Source of the DNA: an uncultured Acidiferrobacteraceae bacterium
GTDB taxonomy: Bacteria; Pseudomonadota; Gammaproteobacteria; Acidiferrobacterales; SZUA-150
Assembly: GCA_913009895.1 (NCBI GenBank)
Contig: CAJVXY010000012.1
Span: forward strand, 1-64,000
DNA length: 64,000 nucleotides
Direction of reading: 5' to 3'
The first letter of the stretch is position 1; every line of letters begins with the position of its first letter. Under the pieces are notes generated by a model. That model was not told the DNA's origin, searched no databases, and saw only the letters and a list, made by a program, of their open reading frames with translations. Shown here piece after piece: positions 8,831 through 60,939 of this stretch. Position numbers and translations under genes: made by a program.

Positions 8831-9793
8831 TTACTGGCGTATCATGACACAATTTCCACCCAGGTTCTTCGCCCGTTTACAGGCATCCATGGCATTGTTT
8901 AAGACGTCGCCGAGGGTATCCGTCTTGCCGTCAATGAGTGTTATACCAATCGAGCAGTGCAAAGTTATTTTTTTTCCTTCGTATTCAACCAGATCTTTTG
9001 TAACGAACTTATGAAATTCGTTACCAGTATATTCAGCAAGTGCTTCAGTCGTGTTATAGATTAATACTGCAAATTCATCACCGCTCAACCTGGCGGCCAT
9101 ATCTGATCCGCGCAGACGCTGTTTTATTTTTTTACCAAACGCAACCAGAACACTGTCTCCTGCATCAAGCCCCATAGTGTCATTGATAAATTTAAACCTG
9201 TCTATATTAATATACAAAAGCGCGCTTGGTTTACCTTCTCTACGCTTCCTGCGTTCCATAACCCGGCCCAGCTCCATTTTCAGGTAATTGTAATTGTAGA
9301 GCCCAGTCAGTGGATCATGATCTGCAATTTTATGGATATCTTCAAGACTGGGTCCACGATCATTGATGTCTTTCATAACCGCCATAAATAAGCATTTATT
9401 GTCGTTAGCTAACTCAGCCAGTGTTAATTCCACCAGTGTAGAGCTGCCATCTTTATGACCAACAACCACTTCCTTCGGGCCATGGCTAATGATTTCAGTG
9501 CTGTCACTTTTCAGGAATCGTTCCACATATTTATCAAAACGACCGGCATCAAAAGGCGTCATGAGTTTAGTCACGCTTTTGCCAAGTACCTCGTCGGCTG
9601 AAAAACCAAATAATGTCTGGGCGGCATTATTGTAGGTTTCAATGGTGCCATCTATGTCAGCAATAATCACTGCATCAGATACACTTTTTAACAGCGTCTT
9701 GAGCCTGTCTTTGCTCTCATCCAGATCCTGGCGTAGAGATTCGGGCTTATCGCCCAATCCGGATTTAAGCCTGGTTTGATTCTGATCGCCCAT
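8831..9793 (-). CDS. PAS domain-containing diguanylate cyclase
   Basis: PAS region (VSDAVIIADIDGTIETYNNAAQTLFGFSADEVLGK) then GGDEF domain with SGDEF active site and RxxD I-site (RGSDMAARLSGDEF). Start placed at MGDQNQ. Confidence 0.9.
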   Translation of the reverse strand: MGDQNQTRLKSGLGDKPESLRQDLDESKDRLKTLLKSVSDAVIIADIDGTIETYNNAAQTLFGFSADEVLGKSVTKLMTPFDAGRFDKYVERFLKSDSTEIISHGPKEVVVGHKDGSSTLVELTLAELANDNKCLFMAVMKDINDRGPSLEDIHKIADHDPLTGLYNYNYLKMELGRVMERRKRREGKPSALLYINIDRFKFINDTMGLDAGDSVLVAFGKKIKQRLRGSDMAARLSGDEFAVLIYNTTEALAEYTGNEFHKFVTKDLVEYEGKKITLHCSIGITLIDGKTDTLGDVLNNAMDACKRAKNLGGNCVMIRQ

Positions 9794-10084
9794 TTTACGT
9801 CTCGATATTGAGAATTTTTGAACAAAAAAGTATTGAACTTCCTCTATTTCATATAGCACATGAAAACGTCGCCAGGTCCATTGCGGGGAATAAATCATCA
9901 AAAATAAGACGATTTCTTTGGCTCATTTTTAAGTAAAAATCAGGGGAAATTCCGGTAAATAGTTGCTGCTATAGCTTAACTTTTGAGACTGGTTTGCTAG
10001 TCTTTCTAGTGAAGTCAGTGGCATTAAGTCCTGAGCAATCAATTCTTCTATCTTACTGAATATAAACAACTATTAGGTTGATTA

Positions 10085-12097
10085 GTGGCAAATATAAGCA
10101 TATCAAAAGACAATTCTGCCCCAGGTCAGCGCAAATCGACTGTTGTGACAAGACCAAAAAGCACCCAGGGTGATGGATTTACCCAGAAACTTGCCAGTTT
10201 CAGCATTTGGCGTGAACAGTTTGTAGCGGCGATTGAGGCCTACCAGGAATGGGTAGAGCAGAATGAGCCAGCCGAGGGTGAAAAAGATCTGCGAATTTAC
10301 CAACTGATTGAATCGTTAAAATCAGACAAGTTAAAAATCGCTTTTGTGGGTGAGTTCTCCCGCGGTAAAACAGAATTGCTCAATGCCGTATTTTTTTCAG
10401 ATTATAAAAAACGTTTATTGCCCTCATCAGCAGGGCGGACAACCATGTGTCCGACAGAGCTTCGTTATGACGTTAAAACAGGAGCCTGTATAAAATTGCT
10501 ACCTATCGAAACACGTAAAACGGATACAACTATTGCTGAGTACAAACAGAATCCGGTGCAGTGGACAACCTTGCACTTGCTTAAGCGAGATTCTGGTGAG
10601 GAACTTGAGGCAGCCTTTTTGGAAGTCACCAAGACCAAGAGAGTGCACACCCGGGAAGCCGAAGAGCTTGGTTTATATAATCCAGATAATAAAATAGCAA
10701 ACAGGGGAGTCTCGATTATTGATGACATGATTGAGATACCCTGCTGGCGGCACGCAATTATTAACTATCCTCATCCTTTACTTGAAAATGGCCTGGTGAT
10801 ATTGGACACACCAGGATTAAATTCCCTGGGTTCTGAGCCAGAGCTTACATTGAGCATGTTACCGGAAGCTCATGCCGTGGTATTTGTGCTGGCGGCCGAT
10901 ACTGGTGTAACAGTAAGTGACATGGAAATATGGGTCAACCATGTCACCAGTGCCAAAAAAGACAAGTTACATGAACGTTTGGTCGTCCTGAATAAAATTG
11001 ATGCTATGTGGGACCCGTTACGTACAGAATCAGAAATCAAGAAATTAATAAATAATCAAATTGAAAGTACGGCACTGTCGTTAAAAGAAAACAGAAATAT
11101 AATAATGCCCGTATCGGCTAAAGCTGGCCTGACTGCAAAAATAAATGACGATAAGGAATTACTTGAAAAGAGCGGAATAAGTGATCTTGAGTTATGCCTG
11201 GCCAGGAAAATTTTACCTGCTAAACACGAGATAATACGCCGCAAAGTTGTTTATGAAGTTAGTGGCAGGATAGAAAAAAGTCAGCAGTTACTAAAAGCAA
11301 AATATAACGGTGTAGATAACCAGCTAAAAAAATTAAAAGAAATTGGCGGAAAAAATCTTGATGAAATACAGGAAATGGTCTCTATGATGCGTCAGGAGAA
11401 GAAGAAATATGAAATGGAAATCAAGGGGTTTGAGATAACGAGAAAAGTATTAACCGAACAGGCAACCGTTTTATTTAACGATCTGAATTTAAAGGTGCTT
11501 GACAAACTAATTCGTCTGACGCGCAAACATATGAAAGAGAGCTGGACAACCGCTGGCTTAAAGAAGGCCATAAAACAGTTTTTTGCAACTGCCATGAGCC
11601 CAATGGACAATGTTAAAGAGCAGTCAGAGGAAATTAAAAAATCAGTAGATGAGATTTGTCTGAAAATGCACAAAGAATATGGACTTCCCCTGATTCATGT
11701 ACCTGCTTTGTCACTGGTTCCTTACGTTATGGACCTGAAGAAACTGGAGGGCAGGGCTGAGGTGTTCAGGAGTAGTGCAGAAATTATTGTTACTGAACAA
11801 AATACAGTAATCAGTAAATTTTTTGTTGTGATGGTTTCAGAAGCGAGAAAAATATTTGATGACTGTAGCCAGCACGCCCAGGGATGGTTTCAGGAACTGG
11901 CCAGCCAGGTACACAACCATTTAAGAATACATAAAAATATAATTGATAAAGGACTGGAATCTATTCGTGCAATTCATGAAGATATCGATGCAATTGGACA
12001 GCAAATTTCAGGCCTTGAGCAGGAAAAGGCCAGTATCGCAGTTCAGCTTGGGACAGTTAATGGTCTGTTTAAGAAAATTCAAAAACCAATAGTTTAA
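10085..12097 (+). CDS. Dynamin-family GTPase (bacterial dynamin-like protein)
   Basis: P-loop GEFSRGKTELLNAV, switch LDTPGLNS, VLNKID; long coiled-coil helices downstream. GTG start. Confidence 0.85.
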   Translation: MANISISKDNSAPGQRKSTVVTRPKSTQGDGFTQKLASFSIWREQFVAAIEAYQEWVEQNEPAEGEKDLRIYQLIESLKSDKLKIAFVGEFSRGKTELLNAVFFSDYKKRLLPSSAGRTTMCPTELRYDVKTGACIKLLPIETRKTDTTIAEYKQNPVQWTTLHLLKRDSGEELEAAFLEVTKTKRVHTREAEELGLYNPDNKIANRGVSIIDDMIEIPCWRHAIINYPHPLLENGLVILDTPGLNSLGSEPELTLSMLPEAHAVVFVLAADTGVTVSDMEIWVNHVTSAKKDKLHERLVVLNKIDAMWDPLRTESEIKKLINNQIESTALSLKENRNIIMPVSAKAGLTAKINDDKELLEKSGISDLELCLARKILPAKHEIIRRKVVYEVSGRIEKSQQLLKAKYNGVDNQLKKLKEIGGKNLDEIQEMVSMMRQEKKKYEMEIKGFEITRKVLTEQATVLFNDLNLKVLDKLIRLTRKHMKESWTTAGLKKAIKQFFATAMSPMDNVKEQSEEIKKSVDEICLKMHKEYGLPLIHVPALSLVPYVMDLKKLEGRAEVFRSSAEIIVTEQNTVISKFFVVMVSEARKIFDDCSQHAQGWFQELASQVHNHLRIHKNIIDKGLESIRAIHEDIDAIGQQISGLEQEKASIAVQLGTVNGLFKKIQKPIV

Positions 12098-12242: not shown

Positions 12243-13370
12243 TTATGATGCAGCTCTGTTACCGGTCAAATTCCCCGCGGCCCAGCGAGCTATGTAAGAT
12301 GGAATATCACTAATCGATAGTATTTTATTGACAGCACCAAGTTTATTCGCCTGATCAGGCATGCCATATATCACACTGCTCTTTTTATCCTGGGCAATTG
12401 TATAGGAACCATTCCTGTACATGGAGAGCATTCCTTTGGCACCATCTTTGCCCATACCTGTAAGGATAATCCCCAGTATATCTGCGCCAGGGTAATGACT
12501 GACAGACTCAAACAAAACATCGACTGCCGGTTTGTGTTGATTGACCAGGTCGCCATCGAAGACATTTACAACAAAATCATTCCTGGCATTTTGTGATACA
12601 GCTAAATGATAGGCGCCATTGGCTATCAGCATCGTTCCCGGTGTCAATGTATCTCCATCTTTGGCTTCCCTGATATCGAGGGCCGATAACAGGTTGATTC
12701 TCTGAGCATACATATCGGTAAAACGAGGCGGCATGTGCTGGACGACAGCAATCCCCGGGCTGTCTACCGGTAATGCCTCGGCAATTTCCTGAATTGCCTT
12801 GGTTCCGCCAGTAGACGCGCCAATGGCAATGATTTTTTTGTTTCCTGATCGGGACGCCCTGATTTTTACTTTCCTGGGACCAGTAACTGTTCTCAGGTGG
12901 TCAAGCGAACCCCTGTCGTTTGTTTTTACCTGTTTATTGATTAAATTGACACCGGGGTGAATTTTTGCATTGGCAGCGGCTTCCAGTTTGTTGCAAAGAT
13001 CTGCAATAAATGGATCCAATGAACCGCTGGCATTCATTTTTGGTTTGGTTATAAAATCAATCGCGCCCAGTTCAAGTGCCCGAAAGGTTTCGCGGGCGCC
13101 TTTTTCCGTATGTGACGAGACCATGACAACAGGCATTGGTCTTACTTCCATTAATTCTTTCAAAAATGTCAGGCCATCCATGCGCGGCATTTCTACATCC
13201 AGGGTAAGGACGTCAGGGTTAACCCGGGGTATTTTATTTCTAGCAAGAATAGGATCAGAAGAAATGCCTACAACTTCGAACCTTGGATCTTCCGTAATAA
13301 TGGATTTAAGCAGCTCTCGCATGACAGCAGAGTCATCTATAATCAGGACTTTTATTATTTTAGTCAACAA
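12243..13370 (-). CDS. cheB: Chemotaxis response regulator protein-glutamate methylesterase CheB
   Basis: Receiver domain plus methylesterase motifs (IGASTGGTKAIQEIAEALP, VVQHMPPRFT, ILTGMGKDGAKGM). Confidence 0.95.
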   Translation of the reverse strand: MLTKIIKVLIIDDSAVMRELLKSIITEDPRFEVVGISSDPILARNKIPRVNPDVLTLDVEMPRMDGLTFLKELMEVRPMPVVMVSSHTEKGARETFRALELGAIDFITKPKMNASGSLDPFIADLCNKLEAAANAKIHPGVNLINKQVKTNDRGSLDHLRTVTGPRKVKIRASRSGNKKIIAIGASTGGTKAIQEIAEALPVDSPGIAVVQHMPPRFTDMYAQRINLLSALDIREAKDGDTLTPGTMLIANGAYHLAVSQNARNDFVVNVFDGDLVNQHKPAVDVLFESVSHYPGADILGIILTGMGKDGAKGMLSMYRNGSYTIAQDKKSSVIYGMPDQANKLGAVNKILSISDIPSYIARWAAGNLTGNRAAS

Positions 13371-13390: not shown

Positions 13391-13996
13391 CTAAAAAAGG
13401 GTAGGTATTCCGTCCAGTTCATCTGTTCTAAGCCTGGAAAGGAAGATATTTTCTTCAGTTATTGTTTTAGTTGCTTCATTTTCGCCAAGACGTTTTAAAT
13501 ATACTTTTCCAGTATGCGGGAAGAATAGAACGCGTTTGGGGTGATTGCCACCGAGGTCGCTGGTAATAACTTTTATTTTTTCGGTTGCAAGAAACTTACC
13601 GACAAAACTGATATTCATACTGGGAACACTGTTATTGGAGTCAGGGATATCAAGAACGTGGCCGCCACCAAAAACTTTTACAATAAACCGGGCGCGAACA
13701 CCGCCAATTTTAATGAGATTGTTTATTAGTAGCTCCATGGCATGGACACCGTAACGCGTGCTTAATGGGTTATTCAGGTCCGTTGCTTTTGGCAACATAA
13801 AATGATTCATACCACCAACATTACATTCTGGATCATACATACAGACGGAAATACATGAGCCCAATACAGTGTCAAAAACAACAGGGTCTTTGCTGACTTT
13901 GACACAACCAATATTGATACGCTCGAGAGGAAGCCCTTCCACTTCTCTAGGCAGACGACGATGTTTCGAAGAATTTAAATTAGTATTTGTTAACAT
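13391..13996 (-). CDS. cheD: Chemoreceptor glutamine deamidase CheD
   Basis: VLGSCISVCMYDP...GGMNHFMLP motifs. Confidence 0.95.
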   Translation of the reverse strand: MLTNTNLNSSKHRRLPREVEGLPLERINIGCVKVSKDPVVFDTVLGSCISVCMYDPECNVGGMNHFMLPKATDLNNPLSTRYGVHAMELLINNLIKIGGVRARFIVKVFGGGHVLDIPDSNNSVPSMNISFVGKFLATEKIKVITSDLGGNHPKRVLFFPHTGKVYLKRLGENEATKTITEENIFLSRLRTDELDGIPTLF

Positions 13997-14005
13997 AGAA
14001 GTAAT

Positions 14006-14884
14006 TCAATTGGTCCTGTTAATCTGGTAAATATTTTTACCAAGATTTACCAGATTTGTTTCTTGTCCATGCAGTGACTCGGAATGACCAAGCATCAGAT
14101 AACCATCTAAAACCAGATTGTCCTGAAAACGGTGAATTAGTTCATGTTGTGTTTTTTTATCAAAATAAATTATAACGTTTCGACAAAAAATGATATCGAA
14201 TTTTTGTTTATGATGCCATTTGGTATCAAGCAAGTTGAGCTGCTGAAACGTAATTAAGTCTCTTAATTTGTCCGCGGCCCTGAAGAATCCGTTGTTTTCT
14301 CCTCTTCCTTTATGGAAATATTTAAGTAAAAGATTATTTGGAATTTGATCAGCATTCTCCATGGGATAAATACCATCATATGCCTTTTTGAGGACATTGG
14401 TGTCTATGTCCGTAGCAAGTATCTTTACATGCCATCCAAAATTATCGGGAAAGGCTTCAGAAAGCGCCATAGCAATAGTATATGCTTCTTCGCCAGTTGA
14501 GCAGCCGGCACTCCAGATATTTATAGTTTTAGTATGATGACTTAGGGCGTTTTTCTTTAGAGCTGGAAACAGGGTTTCACTTAAAAACTTAAAATGAAAA
14601 TCTTCACGAAAAAAACTGGTCTTATTGGTTGTAATTGCGTTAATCATTTCAACCAGCTCTGTGCCGGTAGTATCTTTATTTAAAATATAATTATAATAAT
14701 CAAGATAAGTCTTAAGGCCATGGAATCGCAATCTCTTGCCAAGGCGGGAATAGACGAGCGCACGCTTATGTTCAGACAAAGAAATACCCGTCTGCTCATA
14801 TATCAATTCCCTGAATAATCTAAACTCCTTGTCGGTTAAATTATCCGCGTGATGTATCACTGGAGATTGCAAATTTGCGGTCAT
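14006..14884 (-). CDS. cheR: Protein-glutamate O-methyltransferase CheR
   Basis: NIWSAGCSTGEEAYTIAM, IFCRNVIIYFD motifs. Confidence 0.95.
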   Translation of the reverse strand: MTANLQSPVIHHADNLTDKEFRLFRELIYEQTGISLSEHKRALVYSRLGKRLRFHGLKTYLDYYNYILNKDTTGTELVEMINAITTNKTSFFREDFHFKFLSETLFPALKKNALSHHTKTINIWSAGCSTGEEAYTIAMALSEAFPDNFGWHVKILATDIDTNVLKKAYDGIYPMENADQIPNNLLLKYFHKGRGENNGFFRAADKLRDLITFQQLNLLDTKWHHKQKFDIIFCRNVIIYFDKKTQHELIHRFQDNLVLDGYLMLGHSESLHGQETNLVNLGKNIYQINRTN

Positions 14885-14984: not shown

Positions 14985-15506
14985 TTAATTCTCTTCAGGC
15001 GTGGTACTGTGGCCCTGATCAGCACTAACGTCAGCCAGATCATCAATATCAGCAAGTTTGCTTATATCCAGTAGAATGAGCAGTTTTTCATCAAACTGGA
15101 CCAGCCCCTCAATAAACTGCCTGTTGAGCTGCCCCTCAAATTCAGGTGCTTCACAGTGCTGTTCGTTGGATGCGTTCACCACATCACTAACAGAATCAAC
15201 AACCAGGCCAGCAAGTTTGCCAGCAATATTTACAACTATGATTACTGTAAATTGGTCGTATTCCTTTCTTTCAAGATTAAAGCGTAATCGTAAATCGATA
15301 ATGGGGACGATTGTACCACGCAGATTTAAAACTCCTTTTATAAAATGGGGCGAATTGGGGATTGGCGTAACGGCGGTCCATCCTTTTATCTCCTGAACTT
15401 CGAGAATGGGTATACCATAATCCTGATCACTCAGTCTGAATGTCAGGTACTGTTGTTCAAGGTCATCCATATTTTCTTTAATGTCTGCCAGGTTCGTGTT
15501 ATCCAT
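14985..15506 (-). CDS. cheW: Chemotaxis protein CheW
   Basis: CheW fold motifs (VTPIPNSPHFIKGVLNLRGTIVPIIDLR). Confidence 0.95.
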   Translation of the reverse strand: MDNTNLADIKENMDDLEQQYLTFRLSDQDYGIPILEVQEIKGWTAVTPIPNSPHFIKGVLNLRGTIVPIIDLRLRFNLERKEYDQFTVIIVVNIAGKLAGLVVDSVSDVVNASNEQHCEAPEFEGQLNRQFIEGLVQFDEKLLILLDISKLADIDDLADVSADQGHSTTPEEN

Positions 15507-15550: not shown

Positions 15551-17593
15551 TCAGGATGCCGCTTTAAGCGAATGGCCCTGATGGTGTTTGTGATTTACCA
15601 GGTTTGCAAGGGTAGATATATCAAGAATTAATGCTACTTCTCCATCGCCAAGAATGGTTGCAGTGGCCACACCTTCAACACGTTTGTAATGTGTCTCAAG
15701 GCTTTTGACGACCACCTGTTGCTGACCCACGATCTCATCGACCAACAGGCCAATTTTTTTGCTTTCAGCTTCCACAATTATGATAATACCGTCAGAAGTA
15801 TTTTTAACTGCTGAGCTTAAATTAAATAATTCGTAGAGTTTCAGGAATGGCAAGTATTCGCCATGAAAGGGAACCAGCTCAGAACCGCCGGCGGGCCTGC
15901 TAATATTCTGATCCGGAACTGATAAGGACTCAATTACAGACAAGAGGGGAATGATGTAAACCTGGGAACCAACCTTGACACAAAGTCCATCCATAATTGC
16001 AAGTGTTAACGGTAGACGTAATGTTAATTTTGTTCCTGATCCAGGCTTGTTTATCACTTCCACATTGCCACCCAGCTCGCTGATGCGGGTTCTTACCACG
16101 TCCATGCCTACACCTCTGCCGGATACACCTGTTACCTGGGCGGCTGTGGAGAAACCAGGTATAAAAATGAGGTTATCAATTTGTTCGTCAGTTAAATTCG
16201 CATCTTCCGCGACCAGATCTTTTTCTATAGCTTTGTGTAAAATTAAATCACGGTCCAGACCATTGCCATCGTCTTCGATTGTGATCACGACACTGCCGCC
16301 TTTTTGGGAAGCCTGTACCTGGATGGTGCCCGTTTCAGGTTTACCGGCATTAATTCTTTCTGCGGGTGACTCAAGACCGTGATCAACAGAATTACGAACA
16401 ATATGCATCAGGGCATCGCCCATGCTTTCAATAACACTTTTATCAAGCTCTGTGCCTTCGCCGCTGATATCAAGCTTTACTTTTTTACCCAGTTTTTGGC
16501 TGACATCGCGAACAATCCTGGGTAATTTGTTGAGTGCAAAACCTACTGGCAGCATTCGAATTCCCATTACACTTTCCTGTAATTCTCGTGTATTCCTTTC
16601 CAGCAGGCCAAGACCAAACTGTAGTTTTTCAATTGATTCAGGGGTTATTTCTTCAGAGAATTGGCTAAGCATTGTCTGGGTTATTACAAGTTCGCCCACC
16701 AAATCAACCAGGGCATCAACTTTCGGTGTGCTAACCCGGATTGACTGGACCTCGAGCCCGTTACCTGAAGCCCCTGGGGCTGGCGCCCTGGTATCAACAT
16801 TTGAGTCAGTGTCTGGCACGGGTTTGGAAGTCGGCGACTTTTGCGTATCAGTTTTTTGTATAATGTTTAAGACACAATCATCTATCACCCATGAAAATAC
16901 ATTTTCAATCTGACTTTTCTTGATTGGTTCAGAAAAATCAATATGCCATGATAAATAAATATCTTCAGGATTTATGTTTTTCCAGCTCGGTAGGGATTTT
17001 ATATTTAATCTTGACCTGATTTTACCAAGTTGTGTTAACGCGCGAATAATACGAACTGGATCATTGCCGGTAGACAATATGTTCTTATTTGGTACAAATG
17101 ATATATCCCAGCCAGCAACATCATTATGATCAATGGATCTTGTTTTTTGCCTTCTGTCCAGGGTTACAGCACAATTTGTTCCCTGTAGACTTTCCAGTTT
17201 GATCTGAAACTCATTTATATCAGCAGGGACTGTGTTAATTCCGTTTTGAGCATTCTGGACTAAAGTTCTCAGGCAATCACACGATTGCAGTAAAATGCTA
17301 ATAAGATCGCGTGTTGTTTTACAGCGATTTTCTCGAATGTCATCAAGGAGGCTCTCAAGAACATGACTGAAGTTGGCAACCACTTCAAAACCAAAAGTAC
17401 TGCTTCCGCCCTTAATTGAATGGACAGCTCGAAATATAATATTTAGAGATTCGTTGTCTGCTTTAAACTCGTCAGAAACTCTTCGCCCGGACATGTGGCT
17501 ATCAAGACGAAGTAGTTCGGCTTCCATGTCAGACAATGCCTCAAGACTTTCTTCAAAAAAAGTCTGATGAAATTGTGTGAGATCGATAGCCAT
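15551..17593 (-). CDS. cheA: Chemotaxis histidine kinase CheA
   Basis: HPt motif VHSIKGGSSTFGF, HATPase motifs (HIVRNSVDHGLE, GRGVGMDVVRT), C-terminal CheW-like domain. Confidence 0.95.
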   Translation of the reverse strand: MAIDLTQFHQTFFEESLEALSDMEAELLRLDSHMSGRRVSDEFKADNESLNIIFRAVHSIKGGSSTFGFEVVANFSHVLESLLDDIRENRCKTTRDLISILLQSCDCLRTLVQNAQNGINTVPADINEFQIKLESLQGTNCAVTLDRRQKTRSIDHNDVAGWDISFVPNKNILSTGNDPVRIIRALTQLGKIRSRLNIKSLPSWKNINPEDIYLSWHIDFSEPIKKSQIENVFSWVIDDCVLNIIQKTDTQKSPTSKPVPDTDSNVDTRAPAPGASGNGLEVQSIRVSTPKVDALVDLVGELVITQTMLSQFSEEITPESIEKLQFGLGLLERNTRELQESVMGIRMLPVGFALNKLPRIVRDVSQKLGKKVKLDISGEGTELDKSVIESMGDALMHIVRNSVDHGLESPAERINAGKPETGTIQVQASQKGGSVVITIEDDGNGLDRDLILHKAIEKDLVAEDANLTDEQIDNLIFIPGFSTAAQVTGVSGRGVGMDVVRTRISELGGNVEVINKPGSGTKLTLRLPLTLAIMDGLCVKVGSQVYIIPLLSVIESLSVPDQNISRPAGGSELVPFHGEYLPFLKLYELFNLSSAVKNTSDGIIIIVEAESKKIGLLVDEIVGQQQVVVKSLETHYKRVEGVATATILGDGEVALILDISTLANLVNHKHHQGHSLKAAS

Positions 17594-17597
17594 TATA

Positions 17598-17960
17598 TTA
17601 ATTTAAAACATTCTTTATAACGTTTAAAAGCTGCTCTGGATTGAAGGGCTTCACTATCCAGCCCGTAGCACCAGCTTCCTTGCTTTCCTTTCTTTTTGAA
17701 TCCTGGGATTCTGTTGTTAACATAAGGATGGGTGTAAATTTGTATTCAGGTAATGAGCGCAATTCACGTACCAGGGAAATGCCATCCATATTAGGCATAT
17801 TGATATCTGTAATTATCGCATCAAACTTTGACTTGCGGGCAGCAGCAAGCGCTTCATTACCATCAGCAGCTTCAGTTACTTCATAACCAGCGTCGTTAAG
17901 GGTAAATCCAATCATTTGTCTCATTGAAGCAGTATCATCTACTGTGAGTATTGTTGCCAT
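17598..17960 (-). CDS. cheY: CheY-like response regulator
   Basis: Single receiver domain, 120 aa, in the che operon (ILTVDDTASMRQMI, DAIITDINMPNMDGI). Confidence 0.9.
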   Translation of the reverse strand: MATILTVDDTASMRQMIGFTLNDAGYEVTEAADGNEALAAARKSKFDAIITDINMPNMDGISLVRELRSLPEYKFTPILMLTTESQDSKRKESKEAGATGWIVKPFNPEQLLNVIKNVLN

Positions 17961-17971
17961 ATATACCTCCT

Positions 17972-19315
17972 TTAAAATAATTCCACATTTGGACCGCTAT
18001 TGGGTACCGCATTATCTTTGCTGACACCGTCATTATTGCTGGCCGGTTGAGGGCTCCCGTTTGTAGCTGATTTCTTTTGTTGATTTTGCATGGCTAAATT
18101 ATTATTCCAGCTGTCAGCAAGACCAAGACTGTGGGTTTCATTCGTAAGTAAATCGATTTCTGAAGCAAGATTATCCATAGGTGCAGCAATGCTATTCAAC
18201 TTCTGGGAGATGATGTCGTGAAATTGAAGTGAAATAACCACGTTCTGTACATCCTGTGCAATTTCTTTGCTGATGGTATTAATGTCGCTAACTGTCTCGG
18301 CAACCTCACGGTTTTTATCTTCGAGAGTTTTTGTAAGCGTCATGATTTCATTCTTGATATTATTTGCATGAGCCATATCTTTTGATGTCAGTGTCTGCAT
18401 ATTACTGTAGGTAGCATTAAGCCCATTTTTTACCATCCTGAGATGGTTGCGAATTTCATGACTGAATACATTGGAGCGTTTACTAAGACGCCTGACTTCC
18501 TGGGCAACAATACCAAAACCACGACCGGCTTCACCGGCGCGAGATGCCTCGATATCCGCATTTAGCGCCAACAGGCTTGTTTGATCGGCAAGTTTGCCAA
18601 CATCAAGTAAAAATCCATCAATAGCCTGTGTTCGATCTTTTACATCATCCAGATCCCTGACCATTTTTACTGACAAGTCGGCTACACGCATTACCTCATC
18701 TGCCATTTTGTTCAGGCGCTCATCAGAAACCCGAATAAAATCCTGTAGCGATTGGGGTGAACCATCGCTGGTGGCGCCTTGTGTTCCTTCCAGCAGGTTC
18801 ATTGCCTGGCTGGCCTGCAAAGTGGCTTTGTTGATAACAGTTTTAAAGCTGCTGGCAATAGTATCTGTTGCGTCTTCACTCTGATTTATTACTTCATTGA
18901 TCTGTGCATCCAGGTGCTGTTTAACGGCGTTAAATTGTTTGGCAAGTTCTGCCCATTTCCCGACGAGTCCGTCAATACGGCGTCTTTCGCTTGCGCCTGC
19001 CATTGTCGTCAGGAGATCATCGATTTTTGGAAGCTGGTTCATCTCACCTTTGGCTGGTTCAATTGCTGATCTTAATTGCTCATCAATGGCATCAATAGGC
19101 GACGTTTTTTCATCAAGTGAAGCATCCTGAAATTCATCGAAATCATCCTGTTTCCTGGCAAAATCTATAATCAAGACCATGGCAATAGCTGTGCTAAGTC
19201 CACTACTGACTGCCACCCAGACAGAAACAAAGGAGAAGGTTAAAAGCCATGAGCCCGCAATAAACAGGGTGATTAGAGCCCAAAATATTTTATTTTTTGA
19301 TGCGCTTGAATTCAA
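17972..19315 (-). CDS. Methyl-accepting chemotaxis protein without periplasmic domain; CheZ-like C-terminal helix and VELF tail
   Basis: N-terminal TM hairpin; signalling tip [40 protein letters not shown]; then [19 protein letters not shown] and C-terminus NVELF. Confidence 0.9.
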
Positions 19316-19339
19316 AATAATTCCAGGAGGTTTTGCAGA

Positions 19340-19651
19340 CTAGATGTTATGGAGACCAAGTGCTTCATTCATGCCGGCGTATTCAATGCATTCACGAAAC
19401 TCTTTACTGGTTTCAGTCCAGCCGACTGTTTTTTTCAGGCGTATTGCTTCGCGAGTGCAGGCAATAAGTAATTGTAATACCGCCGTATCGACGCGAGTTA
19501 GTTTTCCAGCATTAAAAATAATCCTGCCTGGTTTTCGTTTCAGGGCTTTACCCAAATCAGCATAAAGTTCGTTGGCATTACTCACGTCGAGAGACTCACC
19601 CAGGTTAATAAGTGTTGCGCCATTCTTATGTTGTAATTTCAGTAACCCCAT
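19340..19651 (-). CDS. STAS domain protein
   Basis: STAS pattern GESLDVSNANELYADLGKALKRKPGRIIFNAGKLTRVDTAVLQLLIAC; first gene of the che operon. Confidence 0.8.
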   Translation of the reverse strand: MGLLKLQHKNGATLINLGESLDVSNANELYADLGKALKRKPGRIIFNAGKLTRVDTAVLQLLIACTREAIRLKKTVGWTETSKEFRECIEYAGMNEALGLHNI

Positions 19652-20022
19652 GTCTCTAATACCTGTTTGTTAACTTGAGTAAAAACAGCTAGTTACGATT
19701 AATACCTGGGTGAAAAAATCTCGGTGAGTAAACGAGGTTTTAGCGGTCCTGACTTAAACATAGCAATAATTACGCAATTGTCACGGTGCGGTCAGGGATA
19801 AAAATAGCTATTAAAAACAACATAATAAGACTAAAAAACAGGCTGTATGTCGCTTCATGACATTTGCCGGATCATGCCAGGCTCGTTATGGAGAATAAGG
19901 TGTTGTTGATTGACAACAGTAATTGTCTGGACTATTTATTCTAGTGTAAGCGCGGGTTTAAGACAGCCAGCGATGAGACTCCTGTTCTTATCTATTCAAA
20001 GGCTATTTTCAGAGGAAAAATA

Positions 20023-20601
20023 ATGAAACCATCTGCCGTTGGTGTTACCCCTAAATCTACATCCAGCGAGCCTGATCTGGACTGGAGCCAGGTCAGGGAA
20101 ACCATACTGATGTTAAATCTGGCAACGGCGCGCATAGAATACTGTATGCGTGATGGGGATGACTCGGTCAATACCCTCACCAATTCATTTACCAATATGG
20201 CTGGCCATGTTGCAGCTATCAGAAGTGCACTTGACCAGGTGTGGGAAAATTCTGATGTCGATGAGACCATAAAAGACGGCGTGCTGGGTAACTGTAATGA
20301 TGTCAGCACAAAAATGCAGAGTGTTATTGTTGCATTTCAGTTTTACGACAAACTGGTTCAGCGCCTGGCTCATATAAGTCGCAGCATGTCTGCTTTGGCT
20401 GCGCTTGTTTCCGATCCAGCTCGTTTGTATTCTCCTTATGAATGGAAAGGATTGCAGGAAAAAATACGTTCCCAGTATTCATTGTCTGATGAAGTAAAAA
20501 TGTTTGATGCCGTCCTGGAGGGGGCCAGTATTGAAGAGGTTGTGAAGCTGATGGAAGAACAGGATAAGTCTCGCAAAGAGAACGATGTCGAGCTTTTCTA
20601 A
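20023..20601 (+). CDS. Remote CheZ-like chemotaxis protein (candidate CheY-P phosphatase)
   Basis: All-helical; helix MQSVIVAFQFYDKLVQRLAHI with D-x3-Q as in the CheZ active site (E. coli D143/Q147); linker; C-terminus NDVELF; divergent from the che operon. Confidence 0.55.
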   Translation: MKPSAVGVTPKSTSSEPDLDWSQVRETILMLNLATARIEYCMRDGDDSVNTLTNSFTNMAGHVAAIRSALDQVWENSDVDETIKDGVLGNCNDVSTKMQSVIVAFQFYDKLVQRLAHISRSMSALAALVSDPARLYSPYEWKGLQEKIRSQYSLSDEVKMFDAVLEGASIEEVVKLMEEQDKSRKENDVELF

Positions 20602-52565: not shown

Positions 52566-53429
52566 TTACTTCACCCCCAGGAATTTTTTGGTACTTTTAT
52601 TTAGCAGCAACACAGGGTTTACTCTCGCATTGTTAAGACTAACAGACCAGTGCAAATGCGGTCCTGTAACCCTGCCAGTTTTCCCCACTTGGCCAATCAC
52701 ATCACCGCGTTTCACAGTTTGTCCTTTTGAGACACTAATAATATCCAGGTGGTTGTACATGGTTACCAGGCCATGGCCATGGTCAATAAAAACGGTATTG
52801 CCATTAAAGAAAAAGTTACCTGTTGCGATAATTTCTCCATCTACAGGCGCTTTAATGCGGGTACCGAGTGGGGCGGCGATATCAATACCACTATGTGGTT
52901 TACGGGGTTTGTTATTAAAATATCGCCTGAGACCGAATTTACTGGACAATCGGCCTTGCACGGGCAACAGGAAATTAAAATTATCTGCACCTCTTTCAGT
53001 CCAGTAGCCAAAGGCATTGCGGACAATTTTCGATTCTTTCTTTATTCGCTTAAGATCCTGTTCGTTAGGGACTACTTTCCTGCGATTTTTGATGCGCAGA
53101 TTTTGCCTGGGGTAATCGTATTTTTTGACAAAAAACGGGTAAGACTTCTGATCGCCATCCATATTGACCGTATAGAGAATGTGTTCACCTGGACTAACAT
53201 CAAGACCCAGGCCGATTATGGCTGTCCAGGAATTGTTCTCTTTCACGACGGTCACGCGATTACCGGAAAAATAGGCTTCAGGTTTTGGTAAATCAACGGC
53301 CACGGTTTTAACCAGGACGATACCACCAGGTACTGGTGAAGCTTTTGGCAGTACGATTTCGTTAGCAGCCAGCGAGGTTTGCATTAGTAACAAAAAAATT
53401 ATTAATGTCTGAAGTAAACGAGCGATCAT
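52566..53429 (-). CDS. M23 family metallopeptidase
   Basis: HSGIDIAAPLGTRIKAPVDGEII, HGHGLVTMYNHL, GPHLHWSV. Confidence 0.93.
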   Translation of the reverse strand: MIARLLQTLIIFLLLMQTSLAANEIVLPKASPVPGGIVLVKTVAVDLPKPEAYFSGNRVTVVKENNSWTAIIGLGLDVSPGEHILYTVNMDGDQKSYPFFVKKYDYPRQNLRIKNRRKVVPNEQDLKRIKKESKIVRNAFGYWTERGADNFNFLLPVQGRLSSKFGLRRYFNNKPRKPHSGIDIAAPLGTRIKAPVDGEIIATGNFFFNGNTVFIDHGHGLVTMYNHLDIISVSKGQTVKRGDVIGQVGKTGRVTGPHLHWSVSLNNARVNPVLLLNKSTKKFLGVK

Positions 53430-53460
53430 GTGTGTTTCGGTGTATATGATTATGACAAAG

Positions 53461-54813
53461 TTATTTTTTATTTATTTTTTCGACTTTACTGACAATGGCC
53501 GCATTTTTTATTACTGTTTCAATCAAGTCACCTTTTATGACCTGTTCGCTATCTCGAAGAATAATACCAGATGCCACCACCCGGGTAATTGAATAACCCC
53601 TGGCCATGGTCTCAAGGGGACTGATTGCATTGAGCTCACGGGATAACCCATGAAGCCGGTTTTGAAAGGTAGCAACTTTTTCATTACAAGAGGATATTAT
53701 CCTGCCAGTCAGATTTTTGACACTTTGTTTTTGAAGTTGTAATTTATTGGAAGGTAGCATGCTATTTAGATTTACATCCAGACGTTCGCTTAACTGCTGT
53801 TTTTTACTCAAGGACAAGAGGATTGTTGTTGACAATCTTTTTCCGAGTCCCTGAATCCTTAACAAAAACTGTTCAATTTGCTGGTCAGGTGTTTTTAGCT
53901 GCCTTGTTAAAAAATCAATTTTTTGAGAAAGATTCTGAATTGTTGTATTTGTTTGTTTAACCAGTTTTTTTTCAAAAGCCATAAGGGAGTTTGTTATATC
54001 AATTTGATCAGGGCTAATAATTTCGGCCGCAGCTGTTGGCGTGGGCGCTCTTTTATCGGCAACCCAGTCGGCGATGGTTGTATCAGTTTCATGGCCAATA
54101 CCGGAAACAATCGGAATCTTGCAGTTATATATTGCTCGGGCAACGGGTTCTTCATTAAATGGCCAAAGATCTTCCAGTGAGCCACCGCCGCGGGCAAGAA
54201 TCAGGACATCGCATTCATAACGCTCGGAGGCGATTTTAATCATGTTTGTTATGTTGTCAGCAGCAGTTGCGCCCTGTACCTGGGATGGATAGATTAAAAC
54301 CGGCAGTGCCGGGAAACGCCGGTTAAGGGCAGTCAGAATGTCATGTATAACGGCACCGGTCGGAGAGGTAATGACGCCTAATCGTTTTGGAAATACAGGT
54401 AGCTCAATTTTTGCAGACTCATCAAACAGGCCTTCCGCCAACAATTTATTTTTTAATTGCTCAAATTTCTTTATTAGCTGGCCTTCACCGGCATCTTCAA
54501 ACGACTCAATAATGAGCTGAAAATCTCCCCGGCTTTCATAAAGGCTGACTTGTGCCCGGACAATAATTTTTTTTCCGTCTTCAAGTTTTGCGCTAATTTT
54601 ATTGAGCCTGTTTCTAAATAACGCACAGCGAATCTGGGCACCTTCATCTTTGAGAGAAAAATAACAATGACCAGATGCCGGGCGTACCAGGTTAGATACC
54701 TCTCCTTCAATCCAGGCAATGGGGTAACTCGCCTCCAGCAAGGTGCGAACGCTTTTATTAAACTGCGAAACAGAGTAAATATTTTTTCCTGAATTGTTGC
54801 TACTATTTTGCAT
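53461..54813 (-). CDS. xseA: Exodeoxyribonuclease VII large subunit
   Basis: SYPIAWIEGEVSN OB-fold, LARGGGSLEDLWPFNEEPVARAI, GHETDTTIADWVADKRAPTPTAAAE. Confidence 0.97.
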   Translation of the reverse strand: MQNSSNNSGKNIYSVSQFNKSVRTLLEASYPIAWIEGEVSNLVRPASGHCYFSLKDEGAQIRCALFRNRLNKISAKLEDGKKIIVRAQVSLYESRGDFQLIIESFEDAGEGQLIKKFEQLKNKLLAEGLFDESAKIELPVFPKRLGVITSPTGAVIHDILTALNRRFPALPVLIYPSQVQGATAADNITNMIKIASERYECDVLILARGGGSLEDLWPFNEEPVARAIYNCKIPIVSGIGHETDTTIADWVADKRAPTPTAAAEIISPDQIDITNSLMAFEKKLVKQTNTTIQNLSQKIDFLTRQLKTPDQQIEQFLLRIQGLGKRLSTTILLSLSKKQQLSERLDVNLNSMLPSNKLQLQKQSVKNLTGRIISSCNEKVATFQNRLHGLSRELNAISPLETMARGYSITRVVASGIILRDSEQVIKGDLIETVIKNAAIVSKVEKINKK

Positions 54814-54861
54814 TGTTTAGCAGAGATTTATCCATAAGTGGCGTCAAAGTCTACGCCATAA

Positions 54862-54887
54862 AAAAAGCCGGGAGAACCCGGCTTTTT
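54862..54887 (-). terminator. Rho-independent terminator of the small lipoprotein gene
   Basis: AAAAAGCCGGG-agaa-CCCGGCTTTTT. Confidence 0.9.
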
Positions 54888-54913
54888 AAATATATGACTT
54901 AAACGCTTGAGAC

Positions 54914-55204
54914 TTATTTGTAATAAGGCGCTGCGCTCATTTCTGCCATACCTTGAGCCTGTGCAAGTTGCGCTTGTTTCAACGCTTTTTTGGCAAGCTT
55001 CATGGCTTTGTCGTCATCACCGGCTTTTTTGGCTTTATCGGCCTTTTTAAGAAACTTGCCAGTATCGCGCCACAAGGCATCCATGCTTTTGGCTACTTTC
55101 ATTTCTTTTTTGGCTTGTGTAACCACTTCTTCATAGGAAGGTCCTTGTGTTCCGGCGCAAGCGCTCAGGGCCAACAGGGCGGCAAAAATTATGGCTTTTT
55201 TCAT
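54914..55204 (-). CDS. Small Lys/Ala-rich lipoprotein, similar in pattern to SoxXA-binding (SoxK-like) proteins
   Basis: Lipobox LSACA; WRDTGKFLKKADKAKKAGDDDKAMKLAKKALKQAQLAQAQ. Confidence 0.6.
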   Translation of the reverse strand: MKKAIIFAALLALSACAGTQGPSYEEVVTQAKKEMKVAKSMDALWRDTGKFLKKADKAKKAGDDDKAMKLAKKALKQAQLAQAQGMAEMSAAPYYK

Positions 55205-55356
55205 GTACTACTCCTCCAGGGTGTGTTCTGTATGTAATTATATTGTTATGTTTTCTTAAACGTAGCAATCCTGCCTAAAATCAGACACACATCAAAACAA
55301 AACATGGTCACCACGTCAAGGCTCCAGATATAGACTATTTTACTTCTACCAGACAG

Positions 55357-56848
<1,492 letters not shown>

Positions 56849-56909
56849 TGTTTTATAATTTTACTTAAGAAAACTCTGATCAATAATATGGTTGCCATTC
56901 CGACCTATA

Positions 56910-57092
56910 TTTGTCATTACGATATATGTTTGTCATTCCGACCGAAGCGGAGGAATCTTGTCACTACCTGATACTACTGAAGTTCCATGGTATGAGATCT
57001 CTCGGCAACTCGATTGCTGTTCCCGACGCAATTCTACCTCCTCCATGGCCCAGGCCAGCCTCTCGACCTCCGGTCTCACCTTCTCCATGGAG
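56910..57092. repeat. Candidate interspersed intergenic repeat, copy A (TTTGTCATTNCGA units plus two hairpins)
   Basis: TTTGTCATT(A/C)CGA twice (56910, 56929); hairpin ATTGC-tgttcccgac-GCAAT (57013-57032); CTCCATGG...CCATGGAG stem (57041-57092). Confidence 0.5.
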
Positions 57093-57177
57093 TCGTCCAC
57101 TGCGGTCGAGACGACAATTGATCAGATTTCCTGCGTTTATCGCAAGATCAGTTAACCGTTCATACAAATAAAAAATA

Positions 57178-58749
57178 ATGTCTGACCTTCATAACCAAAA
57201 AATCTTAATCCTGGATTTTGGTTCCCAGTACACGCAACTGATTGCCCGTCGTATCCGTGAGGCCGGGGTTTACTGCGAGATCCAGTACGAAGACATGTCG
57301 GCAGCGGCCATCCAGGCCTTTGGGCCGAAGGGAATTATATTGTCCGGTGGGCCCGAGTCTGTTACTGCCGATAATACGTCCCGTGCCAATGATATTGTTT
57401 TTACCCTGGGCGTGCCGGTACTGGGTATTTGTTATGGCATGCAAACCATGGCGGCCCAGCTTGGCGGCAAGGTAGAGTCTTCAAATCATCGTGAATACGG
57501 ATACGCGCAAGTCAAAGTATTAAAAGAATCAAAATTGTTCGGTGACTTGAACGATGGTAAAGATAAAAATAATCAAAAACTTGATGTCTGGATGAGCCAT
57601 GGCGATCGTGTTACCTCTTTGCCTGATGGTTTCCAGGCTATTGCCGGTTCGGAAAATGCGCCCCTGGCGGCTATTGCTGACGAAAGCAAAAATTTTTACG
57701 GACTTCAGTTTCACCCGGAAGTAACCCATACAAAACAGGGTCAGCAAATTATAGAAAAATTTGTCCACAATATTTGTGGCTGCGCCTCTGATTGGGTGCC
57801 TGGCAATATTATTGATGACATTGTCAGCCAGGCAAGAAAACAGGTGGGTCACGACCAGGTGATTCTCGGTTTATCAGGGGGCGTTGACTCATCCGTTGTT
57901 GCCGCGTTATTGCACAAAGCCATTGGCAAACAACTGACCTGTATTTTTGTTGATAATGGTTTGTTACGCCTCAATGAAGGCGACCAGGTCATGGATACCT
58001 TCGCTGACCACATGGGTGTTAATGTAATACGGGTGGATGCAGAAAATCGTTTCCTGGAAAAACTGGCTGGCATTTCGAACCCGGAAGAGAAACGTAAACA
58101 AATCGGTTATACCTTTATTGAGATATTTGAAGAAGAAGCCGAAAAAATCAGTAATGCCAAATGGCTTGCCCAGGGAACGATTTACCCCGACGTAATCGAA
58201 TCTTCGAGAATCAAAAATGGCAAGTCACATGTCATTAAATCGCATCATAATGTTGGTGGTTTGCCAGAAGATATGGCCTTGAGTTTGCTGGAGCCATTAA
58301 GAGAGCTATTCAAGGATGAGGTGCGAAGAATTGGCGAGGCACTGGGCCTGCCCCACAAAATGATTTATCGCCATCCATTTCCTGGCCCCGGGCTCGGTGT
58401 CAGGATTCTTGGCGAAGTCAAAAAAGAATACGCCGACCTGTTGAGACAGGCCGACGCGATTTATATGGACGAGCTTTACAAAAATAATTTGTACGAAAAA
58501 GTATCCCAGGCTTTTACTGTATTTTTACCAGTCAAGTCTGTGGGTGTTGTGGGTGATACCCGTGCCTATGAATACGTAGTGGCCATACGGGCAGTTGAAA
58601 CCATTGATTTCATGACGGCCACCTGGGCCCATTTGCCCTATGAAGTACTGGCGACGATTTCCAATCGAATCATTAATGAGGTGCGTGGCATCAGCCGTGT
58701 GGTTTATGATATTTCAGGCAAACCACCCGCGACCATTGAGTGGGAATAA
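57178..58749 (+). CDS. guaA: GMP synthase (glutamine-hydrolysing)
   Basis: [48 protein letters not shown]. Confidence 0.98.
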
Positions 58750-59229
<480 letters not shown>

Positions 59230-59262
59230 ATATAATCAAATTGGATTCCCGTTGCCACGGGC

Positions 59263-59362
59263 AAGCATTGTTCCCGACAATGCTTTTGCATTTCCTCCAT
59301 TGCACAAGGATGTGCAGGTGCCGTGAAGCACAGGGAAGTGCGAGAACGGCCATCCATGGAGG
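59263..59362. repeat. Structured intergenic element, copy B (hairpin plus three-way-junction-like fold)
   Basis: AAGCATTGT-tcccg-ACAATGCTT (59263-59285); CCTCCAT...ATGGAGG (59294/59362) enclosing TGCAC-AAGGAT-GTGCA and GCCGT..GCAC-AGGGAA-GTGC..ACGGC. Confidence 0.6.
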
Positions 59363-59395
59363 TCAGAATTCAGCTCTTGATTTTATAGGCTGTAG

Positions 59396-59412
59396 GGTGG
59401 GCATTGCCCACC
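59396..59412. repeat. Palindrome GGTGGGCATTGCCCACC
   Basis: Perfect 8-bp arms around one central base. Confidence 0.8.
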
Positions 59413-59499
59413 ATTTAGCGTCGTTCATGCCGTGATGTTTATGATGGGCAGCCGCTTCCAGCAATCGAGTGCCGCCGGAGAGCCAATTGCTTTTTCAAC

Positions 59500-60939
59500 C
59501 TATATCGCAGGCGCCTTGAGCTTGATCGCATCCGTTTGTTGTGATGACTGTTCTCGTTCATCAATGCGTACCAGTGCATCATGGTAATTACGAATCCGCG
59601 TGACAAATCGTACCGGCTCAATACCACGGGCATAACCATATTTTGTTTTGCTATACCATCGCTTGCGTGACAGTAACGGCAGGTTACGTTTTACGTCGGC
59701 CCACTTGTCAGGGTTGCCTTTTCTTTTTTGGGTAATAATCCGTGCATCTTCCAGGTGGCCGAAACCGACATTATAAGCAGCCAACGCCATCCAGAGCCTG
59801 TCAGGCTCTTTAATACTTTCGGGTAAACGTTCACGAAGTTCCTTAATGTAGCGGGCGCCACCGTTGATTGCCTGTTCCGGATCCGTTCGGTCGGTCACAC
59901 CGAGAGATTTTGCTGTATTTTTGGTTAACATCATCATGCCGCGCACACCAGTCGGCGAGGTTGCCTTGGGGTTCCAGAATGATTCCTGGTAACCCATGGC
60001 TGCAAGCAAGCGCCAGTCTATGCCCGTGTCCCTGCCGGCTTTTTCAAACAGGGTTTGATATTTTGGTAAACGATTCTGAATACGCAAATGGTAAACACTC
60101 ATATTGACCGGGTTGGAAACACCGGAAGTACCGTAATAATTATCAAGCAAACGGGCCAGCTCGCCATTCCTGCGAATCTTTTTAATAAATTTTACCGCGG
60201 CTTCGTAAAGGCTCTTGTCCTGGATCCGTGGAAATGCCCAGGCAAGTTTTTCCGGCGTACCAATTTTAAAGGCAATACGAAGATCAGGATAATAAGGACG
60301 ATTTAAATCAAAAAAATTTGAATCAGTCACAGTCAGGTCAAGCAAACCTTCCGTAACCATTTGCAATAAATCCTCTTCACTTTTATCAACAACTTCCATC
60401 CAGCTTGTTTTCGGGTATTTCTTTTTGACTGTTTCCAGTTGTTTTATGTGCCGGGTATTGGCCACCACCTCTATATGGTGTTGGTAAAGATACATGGCCT
60501 CTTTTGGCGGAAACGTACCGGCACGATAAATAACCGCATGGTTGACGACCTGGTAGTGAGGTGTATAACGCAAGGATAAATTATTTTTCTCGTCAATATT
60601 CAAGCCAGCTGCAATCATATCAACCTCGCCACGCTCAAGCACACTTAACCCGGTTTCATTATCCATAATTTGAAACACCGCAGCCACGCCAAGTTGTTCG
60701 GCAAATGCAGTCACCATGTTGTACTCGATGCCGGCATAACCGTCCGGGCCTTTATAAAAAGTGGTGGGACTATTTTTAGTCAAAACAACCAGCTCGCCGG
60801 CACTAATCACCGATTCGAGTTTTGTCTTCGGGCGCTGGCTGCAAGCCGAGATACCGATGGTGACCAAAATAATGATCAGTCCAGACCAGCACCTAAAGCG
60901 CAGGCGAGGGCGAGCAGTTTGAGGGGGAAGTTGGGACAT
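59500..60939 (-). CDS. mltF: Membrane-bound lytic murein transglycosylase F
   Basis: SBP_bac_3-like N-terminal domain plus SLT domain (MGYQESFWNPKATSPTGVRGMMMLTKNTAKSLGV, ALAAYNVGFGHLEDA). Confidence 0.94.
   Translation of the reverse strand: MSQLPPQTARPRLRFRCWSGLIIILVTIGISACSQRPKTKLESVISAGELVVLTKNSPTTFYKGPDGYAGIEYNMVTAFAEQLGVAAVFQIMDNETGLSVLERGEVDMIAAGLNIDEKNNLSLRYTPHYQVVNHAVIYRAGTFPPKEAMYLYQHHIEVVANTRHIKQLETVKKKYPKTSWMEVVDKSEEDLLQMVTEGLLDLTVTDSNFFDLNRPYYPDLRIAFKIGTPEKLAWAFPRIQDKSLYEAAVKFIKKIRRNGELARLLDNYYGTSGVSNPVNMSVYHLRIQNRLPKYQTLFEKAGRDTGIDWRLLAAMGYQESFWNPKATSPTGVRGMMMLTKNTAKSLGVTDRTDPEQAINGGARYIKELRERLPESIKEPDRLWMALAAYNVGFGHLEDARIITQKRKGNPDKWADVKRNLPLLSRKRWYSKTKYGYARGIEPVRFVTRIRNYHDALVRIDEREQSSQQTDAIKLKAPAI

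Follow-up and report, generated by a model that had tools for sequence, protein, structure and literature searches.

In B. subtilis and T. maritima, the pairing of CheC with CheD couples CheD to CheY-P turnover. Within F7 chemosensory clusters, the C-terminal end of the McpA-like receptors (PA0180/CttP) is conserved, position 2 of the pentapeptide being Val, and the role of this end was called unclear (Ortega et al. 2020, PMC7184735). According to work cited in the same paper, McpA of P. aeruginosa, one of the receptors with this Val, binds none of the four CheRs. The paper also describes F7 clusters of stages 1-2 as containing a CheY and no CheZ, and organisms with early F7 systems as having cheZ only with an F6 system. 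In CheZ, the AXXFQ motif is conserved beside DXXXQ (PMC7750401). Finally, CheY3 of Shewanella is able to bind diguanylate cyclases (PMC7666153).

The window analysed here is a stretch of 64,000 nucleotides from an uncultured Acidiferrobacteraceae bacterium. Its chemosensory operon lies on the minus strand and encodes CheB (12243-13370), which, used as a query, matched CheB-like ORFs in related clusters; CheD (201 residues, 13391-13996; Pfam CheD, 1.4e-24); CheR (14006-14884), CheW (14985-15506) and CheA (15551-17593), all three recognised by Pfam scan; a CheY-type receiver of 120 residues (17598-17960; Response_reg, 1.4e-30); a chemoreceptor of 447 residues (17972-19315; MCPsignal, 3.4e-26); and an anti-sigma-antagonist-like STAS protein (19340-19651; STAS_2, 1.9e-11). 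A helical protein of 192 residues, hereafter the small protein, is encoded on the plus strand (20023-20601). Two neighbours of the operon were recognised by eye: a PAS-GGDEF-like protein, which lacks the tail described below (8831-9901, minus), and a dynamin-like GTPase (10085-12097, plus).

The receptor is composed of a hydrophobic N-terminal segment, the MCP signalling domain (residues 217-362), a D-x3-Q helix, a low-complexity linker and the VELF end; no separate sensor domain was recognised in it. Judging from its sequence, it appears to be an McpA-like receptor of F7 clusters. Indeed, its MCP signalling domain is encoded in a cluster that contains cheD and is of F7 type by gene content and order, and its end, NVELF, has Val at pentapeptide position 2 and no xWxxF, in line with the McpA-like definition in PMC7184735. 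The CheR-binding pattern x-[HFYW]-x2-[HFYW] is not matched by this C-terminus, where V occupies an aromatic position. The conservation of the McpA C-terminus is itself already published (2020, PMC7184735). The available parts of that paper differ from the present analysis in reporting neither the D-x3-Q helix nor the occurrence of the tail on CheD, the small protein and cyclases. A literature search for IELF, VELF and DIELF strings, in a library with few subscription papers, found no chemosensory paper. The helix, the tail common to CheD, the small protein and cyclases, and the docking hypothesis appear to be new here, although they may have been noticed elsewhere before.

The chemosensory locus occurs twice in the genome. 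The other copy lies on a different contig, its small protein ending in VEIF and its receptor in NVELF. It is about 94% identical (contig C9, about 52600-59800; loci L004, L115, L356) and stems either from a duplication or, with assembly contamination at 4.45%, from mixed strains. A single copy was seen in the sister genome G029. FliM was found in neither genome, and CheZ was absent from the genome of the window, so that, at 90-95% completeness, control of a flagellar motor is an unlikely role for this system.

An earlier note, made from the sequence alone, had drawn attention to the receptor and the small protein as sharing a helix and an identical tail. Translation of the ORFs bore this out: both proteins end in V-E-L-F (receptor, 17975-17986, minus; small protein, 20587-20598, plus). 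With the stop included, the codons read GTG GAA TTA TTT TAA in the receptor (17972-17986, minus) and GTC GAG CTT TTC TAA in the small protein (20587-20601, plus). As had been pointed out, the difference is synonymous at all four positions; recent copying of this DNA was therefore rejected, and conservation among homologs indicates that the tail is selected. The helices were also found as quoted. In the receptor, D367 and Q371 (D-x3-Q at 18203-18217, minus), with the spacing of the CheZ active site, lie within LQFHDIISQ. The corresponding stretch of the small protein, AFQFYDKLVQ (20332-20361, plus), contains A104, F107, D109 and Q113 in the arrangement A-x-x-F-x-D-x3-Q.

This similarity goes beyond chance. 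A profile built from five small proteins found the receptor at 18155-18340 (minus, E=2.1e-6) and matched receptor-length ORFs in other genomes as well, the relation between small protein and receptor reaching 3e-14 in related clusters. At the level of profiles, the small protein and the McpA-like receptors are related. The helix was then counted in the fetched loci as [QE][FY]-x-D-x3-Q. F-x-D-x3-Q was present in every small protein (112/112) and every McpA-like receptor (37/37), and elsewhere in 2 of 119 Aer2-like receptors, 26 of 9537 unlabelled ORFs, 9 of 111 CheRs and at most one member of each of the CheA, CheB, CheW, CheY, CheD and STAS sets. One of the two helix-bearing Aer2-like receptors, in L079, carries the tail. 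Helix and tail occurred together in 40 of the 41 receptor-like ORFs examined, and the remaining one had neither. The window receptor and its McpA-like counterpart in L009 share 30% identity. An AlphaFold2 model of the receptor, built with 3 sequences, was unusable, with a mean pLDDT of 46. A receptor-like protein of 587 residues (L079:169-1932) seemingly consists of two receptor-like halves and ends in GDNVEIF.

The small protein matched no family in Pfam or NCBIfam, and a sequence search of the PDB returned no relative. Searching contigs of species genomes with the profile of five homologs yielded 346 relatives. Of the 80 that were kept, most came from Gammaproteobacteria and Betaproteobacteria, and some lie on contigs classified as Desulfobacterales. 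The taxonomic labels of contigs L017, L018, L021, L052 and L071 are Desulfobacteraceae, Nitrospira, a cyanobacterium and Manganitrophaceae, and some of these contigs may be gammaproteobacterial ones that were misbinned. Culturable carriers of the system include Azonexus, Zoogloea and Ectothiorhodospira. Within the class, small-protein or receptor-type matches were obtained by profile search in 51 of 369 genomes. In an alignment of 60 homologs, most of which have roughly 50% identity to the window protein, the invariant residues include F105, Q106, F107, Y108, D109, Q113, H117, E190 and F192, and A104 is conserved in at least 90%. At the C-terminal end, F is found at -1 in 108 of 111 homologs, L at -2 in 95, E at -3 in 104, and I or V at -4 in 105, while the linker preceding the tail varies in sequence and length. 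The earlier reading could have been undone by homologs losing the tail or the D and Q at random; no such loss was seen in the survey, and the reading survives in this respect. The AlphaFold2 model of the small protein (mean pLDDT 81.7) is nearly all helix, with long helices at 21-76 and 81-129, the latter containing D109 and Q113. Proteins of 158-163 residues with LQFHDxxxQ and a VELF or IDLF tail are encoded upstream of cheY-cheA (L152:3077-3553, L163:3722-4213) and look, from their sequences, like a further branch of this family.

The gene order STAS, small protein, cheR, cheD, cheB is common to F7-type clusters of many lineages. Outside clusters, the small gene is encoded alone and no constant neighbour was found. 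Comparison of genome lists from profile searches, with the small-protein genomes counted by hand, showed cheD in 39 of 43 small-protein genomes versus 82 of 326 others (Fisher p=4e-17). Canonical CheZ is also present in most small-protein genomes (about 31/43). Proximity to cheY was seen twice: the 158-residue LQFHDMSSQ/VELF protein of L152 is encoded directly upstream of cheY, and in L335 cheY is directly upstream of the small gene. CheD as the hub of the system was considered and rejected, since one genome (G218), where no CheD was found, encodes the small protein in an F7-like cluster, and another (G358) lacks both CheD and a second CheA. In the latter, a single CheA is encoded next to CheZ and the small protein ends in PDPDIELF, which argues against any partner restricted to F7 systems.

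The distribution of the tail was analysed in 100 fetched cheD regions, most of which contain clusters of F7 layout. The consensus is [GDE]-[DE]-[IV]-[DE]-L-F-COOH on a flexible linker, and its bearers in these regions are CheD (G[DE][IV][DE]LF), the McpA-like receptors and the small protein. The Aer2-like receptor of the same clusters ends in EWEEF or a similar pentapeptide, separate from the tail. With the strict pattern, the tail was counted in 115/129 small proteins, 109/141 CheDs and 30/38 McpA-like receptors, versus 0/679 for CheA, CheB, CheR, CheW, CheY, STAS and ParA together; a tail of this class was present in all 37 McpA-like receptors of the fetched loci. Among 9923 unlabelled ORFs of the same loci, one ended exactly in VELF and three in [IV][DE]LF. 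Searching DNA for the tail pattern gave 50 sites in 25 genomes versus 7 sites for the reversed pattern, and 42 sites in 22 genomes versus 2 in a second set, that is 92 sites in 47 genomes versus 9 controls; since these genomes were picked as known carriers of the system, the enrichment is no estimate for genomes at large. With the loose pattern of the window CheD tail, the own genome gave no signal over control. Thus, the tail is a selected C-terminal motif common to several unrelated components of F7-type chemosensory systems. That the two VELF ends coincide by accident, which their length of only four residues might suggest, has a negligible probability: the motif is kept over many homologs behind variable linkers and is nearly absent from other ORFs, and chance was rejected on the tail counts, the reversed-pattern controls and the unlabelled-ORF counts.

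Tail bearers are also found beyond the small protein and the McpA-like receptors. The CheD of the window ends in a divergent form, DGIPTLF (GIPTLF codons at 13394-13411, minus), and the CheB of the window has no tail. Elsewhere in the genome, a GGDEF protein of 360 residues with an intact GGEEF motif (L117; contig C1, 98585-98599; Pfam E 7.5e-35) ends in GDIELF, and its counterpart in the sister genome ends in SGDIELF. Relatives of this protein lie in or beside F7 clusters (L262, L288). The tail is also present on receptors that have CZB, HAMP-like or hemerythrin-like parts and lack the helix. The earlier note had read VELF as a docking peptide of phosphatase-type proteins on a flexible tether. 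Of the earlier reading, the shared D-x3-Q helix, the selected tail on a variable linker and the close association of the two are upheld. The link to phosphatases was too narrow: that note had missed the tail on CheD (GDIELF outside the window), GGDEF proteins and other receptors, so the tail is not restricted to proteins with a CheZ-like helix and is not phosphatase-specific.

The relation to CheZ required a finer distinction. The earlier note had proposed the small protein to be a remote CheZ, and membership in this family was not borne out. No match to the CheZ model (PF04344) was found in the own genome or in the Pfam scan of the small protein. Alignment of 60 small proteins with 22 CheZ sequences by hhalign gave a probability of 0.95%, and the active-site helices were not aligned. 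Foldseek with the small-protein model returned nothing at E<=0.001; all matches had E above 0.2, and no CheZ was among the 50 shown. CheZ builds a dimeric four-helix bundle from a long helical hairpin; for comparison, the model of the small protein has the two long helices given above. Recognisable descent from CheZ was therefore rejected. What stands of the CheZ-like helix is the active-site spacing and part of the AXXFQ-DXXXQ signature. The helix A/S-x-x-F-x-D-x3-Q of the small protein and receptor coincides with CheZ in four positions, with A at -5, F at -2, D at 0 and Q at +4; in the small proteins, A is found at -5 in 89%, F at -2 in 100% and Y at -1 in 96%. However, Q at -1, the most conserved AXXFQ residue, is replaced by Y or E, and the T-G at +2/+3 is absent. 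Like CheZ, the small protein is helical, carries an A-x-x-F-x-D-x3-Q helix and ends in an acidic/hydrophobic, F-ending peptide on a linker. The peptide is D-I-E-L-F here and VDDLLSSLGF in CheZ and, within clusters, the small gene differs in usually preceding cheR-cheD. From these sequence features, the small protein may work like CheZ despite not belonging to its family.

Other known CheY ligands and tethers resemble the tail in part. It is similar to the CheZ C-terminal end QDDVDDLLSSLGF from the same genome set, with an acidic residue, I/V, an acidic residue, L and a hydrophobic end. The N-terminal CheY-binding peptide of FliM (QDEIDALL, same genome set) also has acidic-I/V-acidic followed by L and sits on a linker. 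Unlike the tail, it is N-terminal, has one extra residue between the acid and L, and ends in L instead of a terminal F. The xWxxF pentapeptide that tethers CheR/CheB (EWEEF, NWETF) is likewise an F-ending C-terminal docking peptide on a linker. The tail differs from it in having I/V for W and L for E/T at -2, and in being borne by non-receptors too.

The best explanation of these data holds that the shared tail docks on a CheY-type receiver and that two families bear a CheZ-like phosphatase helix in addition; as a whole, we give it an even chance of being correct. The tail of McpA-like receptors, the small protein, CheD, some GGDEF cyclases and other receptors would dock on a CheY-type receiver, the one encoded at 17598-17960 being the proposed partner and substrate in the window. 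In the small protein and the McpA-like receptors, CheY-P would be gripped by the tail and, as in CheZ, lose its phosphoryl group by hydrolysis that D and Q promote. The system would then possess two phosphatases, one soluble (the small protein) and one built into the receptor. Through the same tail, CheD and the cyclase would read CheY-P, leading to receptor-deamidation feedback and c-di-GMP output. In contrast to the CheC-CheD pairing, CheD itself would carry the link, in the form of its tail. The scheme fits the published facts that, in organisms with early F7 systems, cheZ accompanies only the F6 system (PMC7184735), and that Shewanella CheY3 binds diguanylate cyclases (PMC7666153). Against it stand the negative profile and Foldseek comparisons with CheZ, the missing Q at -1 and T-G at +2/+3, and the canonical CheZ of most small-protein genomes. 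No natural fusion of CheY with the tail was found. More tentatively, one code, [DE][IV][DE]LF, might dock receptor, CheD, CheZ-like protein and cyclase on CheY-P, which would be destroyed on the receptor and would drive both deamidation feedback and c-di-GMP output; we regard this full version as possible, if rather doubtful.

The two parts of the preferred explanation can each be read differently. The D-x3-Q helix might be a structural coiled-coil motif, present by descent in McpA-like receptors and the small protein, with no phosphatase site. The profile relation between the two families, the lack of a significant hhalign relation to CheZ and the missing CheZ Q at -1 are consistent with this. 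Yet, over many divergent sequences of both families, F, D and Q never change (100%) while neighbouring positions vary, and a purely structural role has no obvious need of an exact acid and amide; we consider this reading somewhat unlikely. The tail cannot settle the matter, since CheD, GGDEF proteins and CZB/HAMP receptors carry it without the helix, and by itself it is silent on phosphatase activity.

The tail, for its part, might be a recruitment tag for the array or the pole, binding a scaffold (CheA, CheW, a ParC/ParP-type protein or a polar landmark) and gathering CheD, receptor, small protein and cyclase without contact to CheY. All tail bearers would profit from co-localisation, receptors carry the tail with and without the helix, and ParA genes are common in tail-bearing clusters. 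However, many clusters, including that of the window, have no ParA-like gene, the tail follows the same acidic-I/V-acidic-L-F pattern as CheY ligands do, and the tight link of helix and tail in two families is left unexplained, which makes a mere tag unlikely. Still less probable is a variant of the receptor pentapeptide that binds the CheR or CheB of its own system. The two motifs occupy the same position and end in F, and in the divergent systems L182, L236, L244 and L248 they change together. This reading is opposed by the failure of P. aeruginosa McpA, with Val at position 2, to bind any of the four CheRs (work cited in PMC7184735), by CheD and cyclases, which have no obvious need of tethering to CheR or CheB, and by G358, a genome that keeps the tail but lacks CheD and has its only CheA next to CheZ. 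In the divergent systems L182, L236, L248 and L244, the pentapeptides are FERY, FQRY and FESF (GFERY-like), and the tails of CheD, McpA and the small protein are VYFL, VVFF and LVFF (xFF or FL).

CheY docking combined with a phosphatase helix would answer, in a testable way, two questions raised by PMC7184735: how F7 clusters with their own CheY do without CheZ, and what the McpA end is for. CheD feedback and c-di-GMP synthesis would both be connected to chemoreceptors through one short motif. The specificity of this motif is also sufficient for predicting further pathway members in genomes without annotation. Indeed, when the pattern sites were read back, with similarity search or inspection by eye, and in some cases Pfam, identifying the proteins, 77 of 80 belonged to CheD, small proteins, receptors or GGDEF proteins (50/50 in the first set, 27/30 in the second). 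A further ORF of 73 residues, in L391 (G394:C9:158595), consists of a hydrophobic helix and a coiled stretch and ends in DEGDIELF; from its sequence, it is possibly a minimal membrane bearer of the tail.
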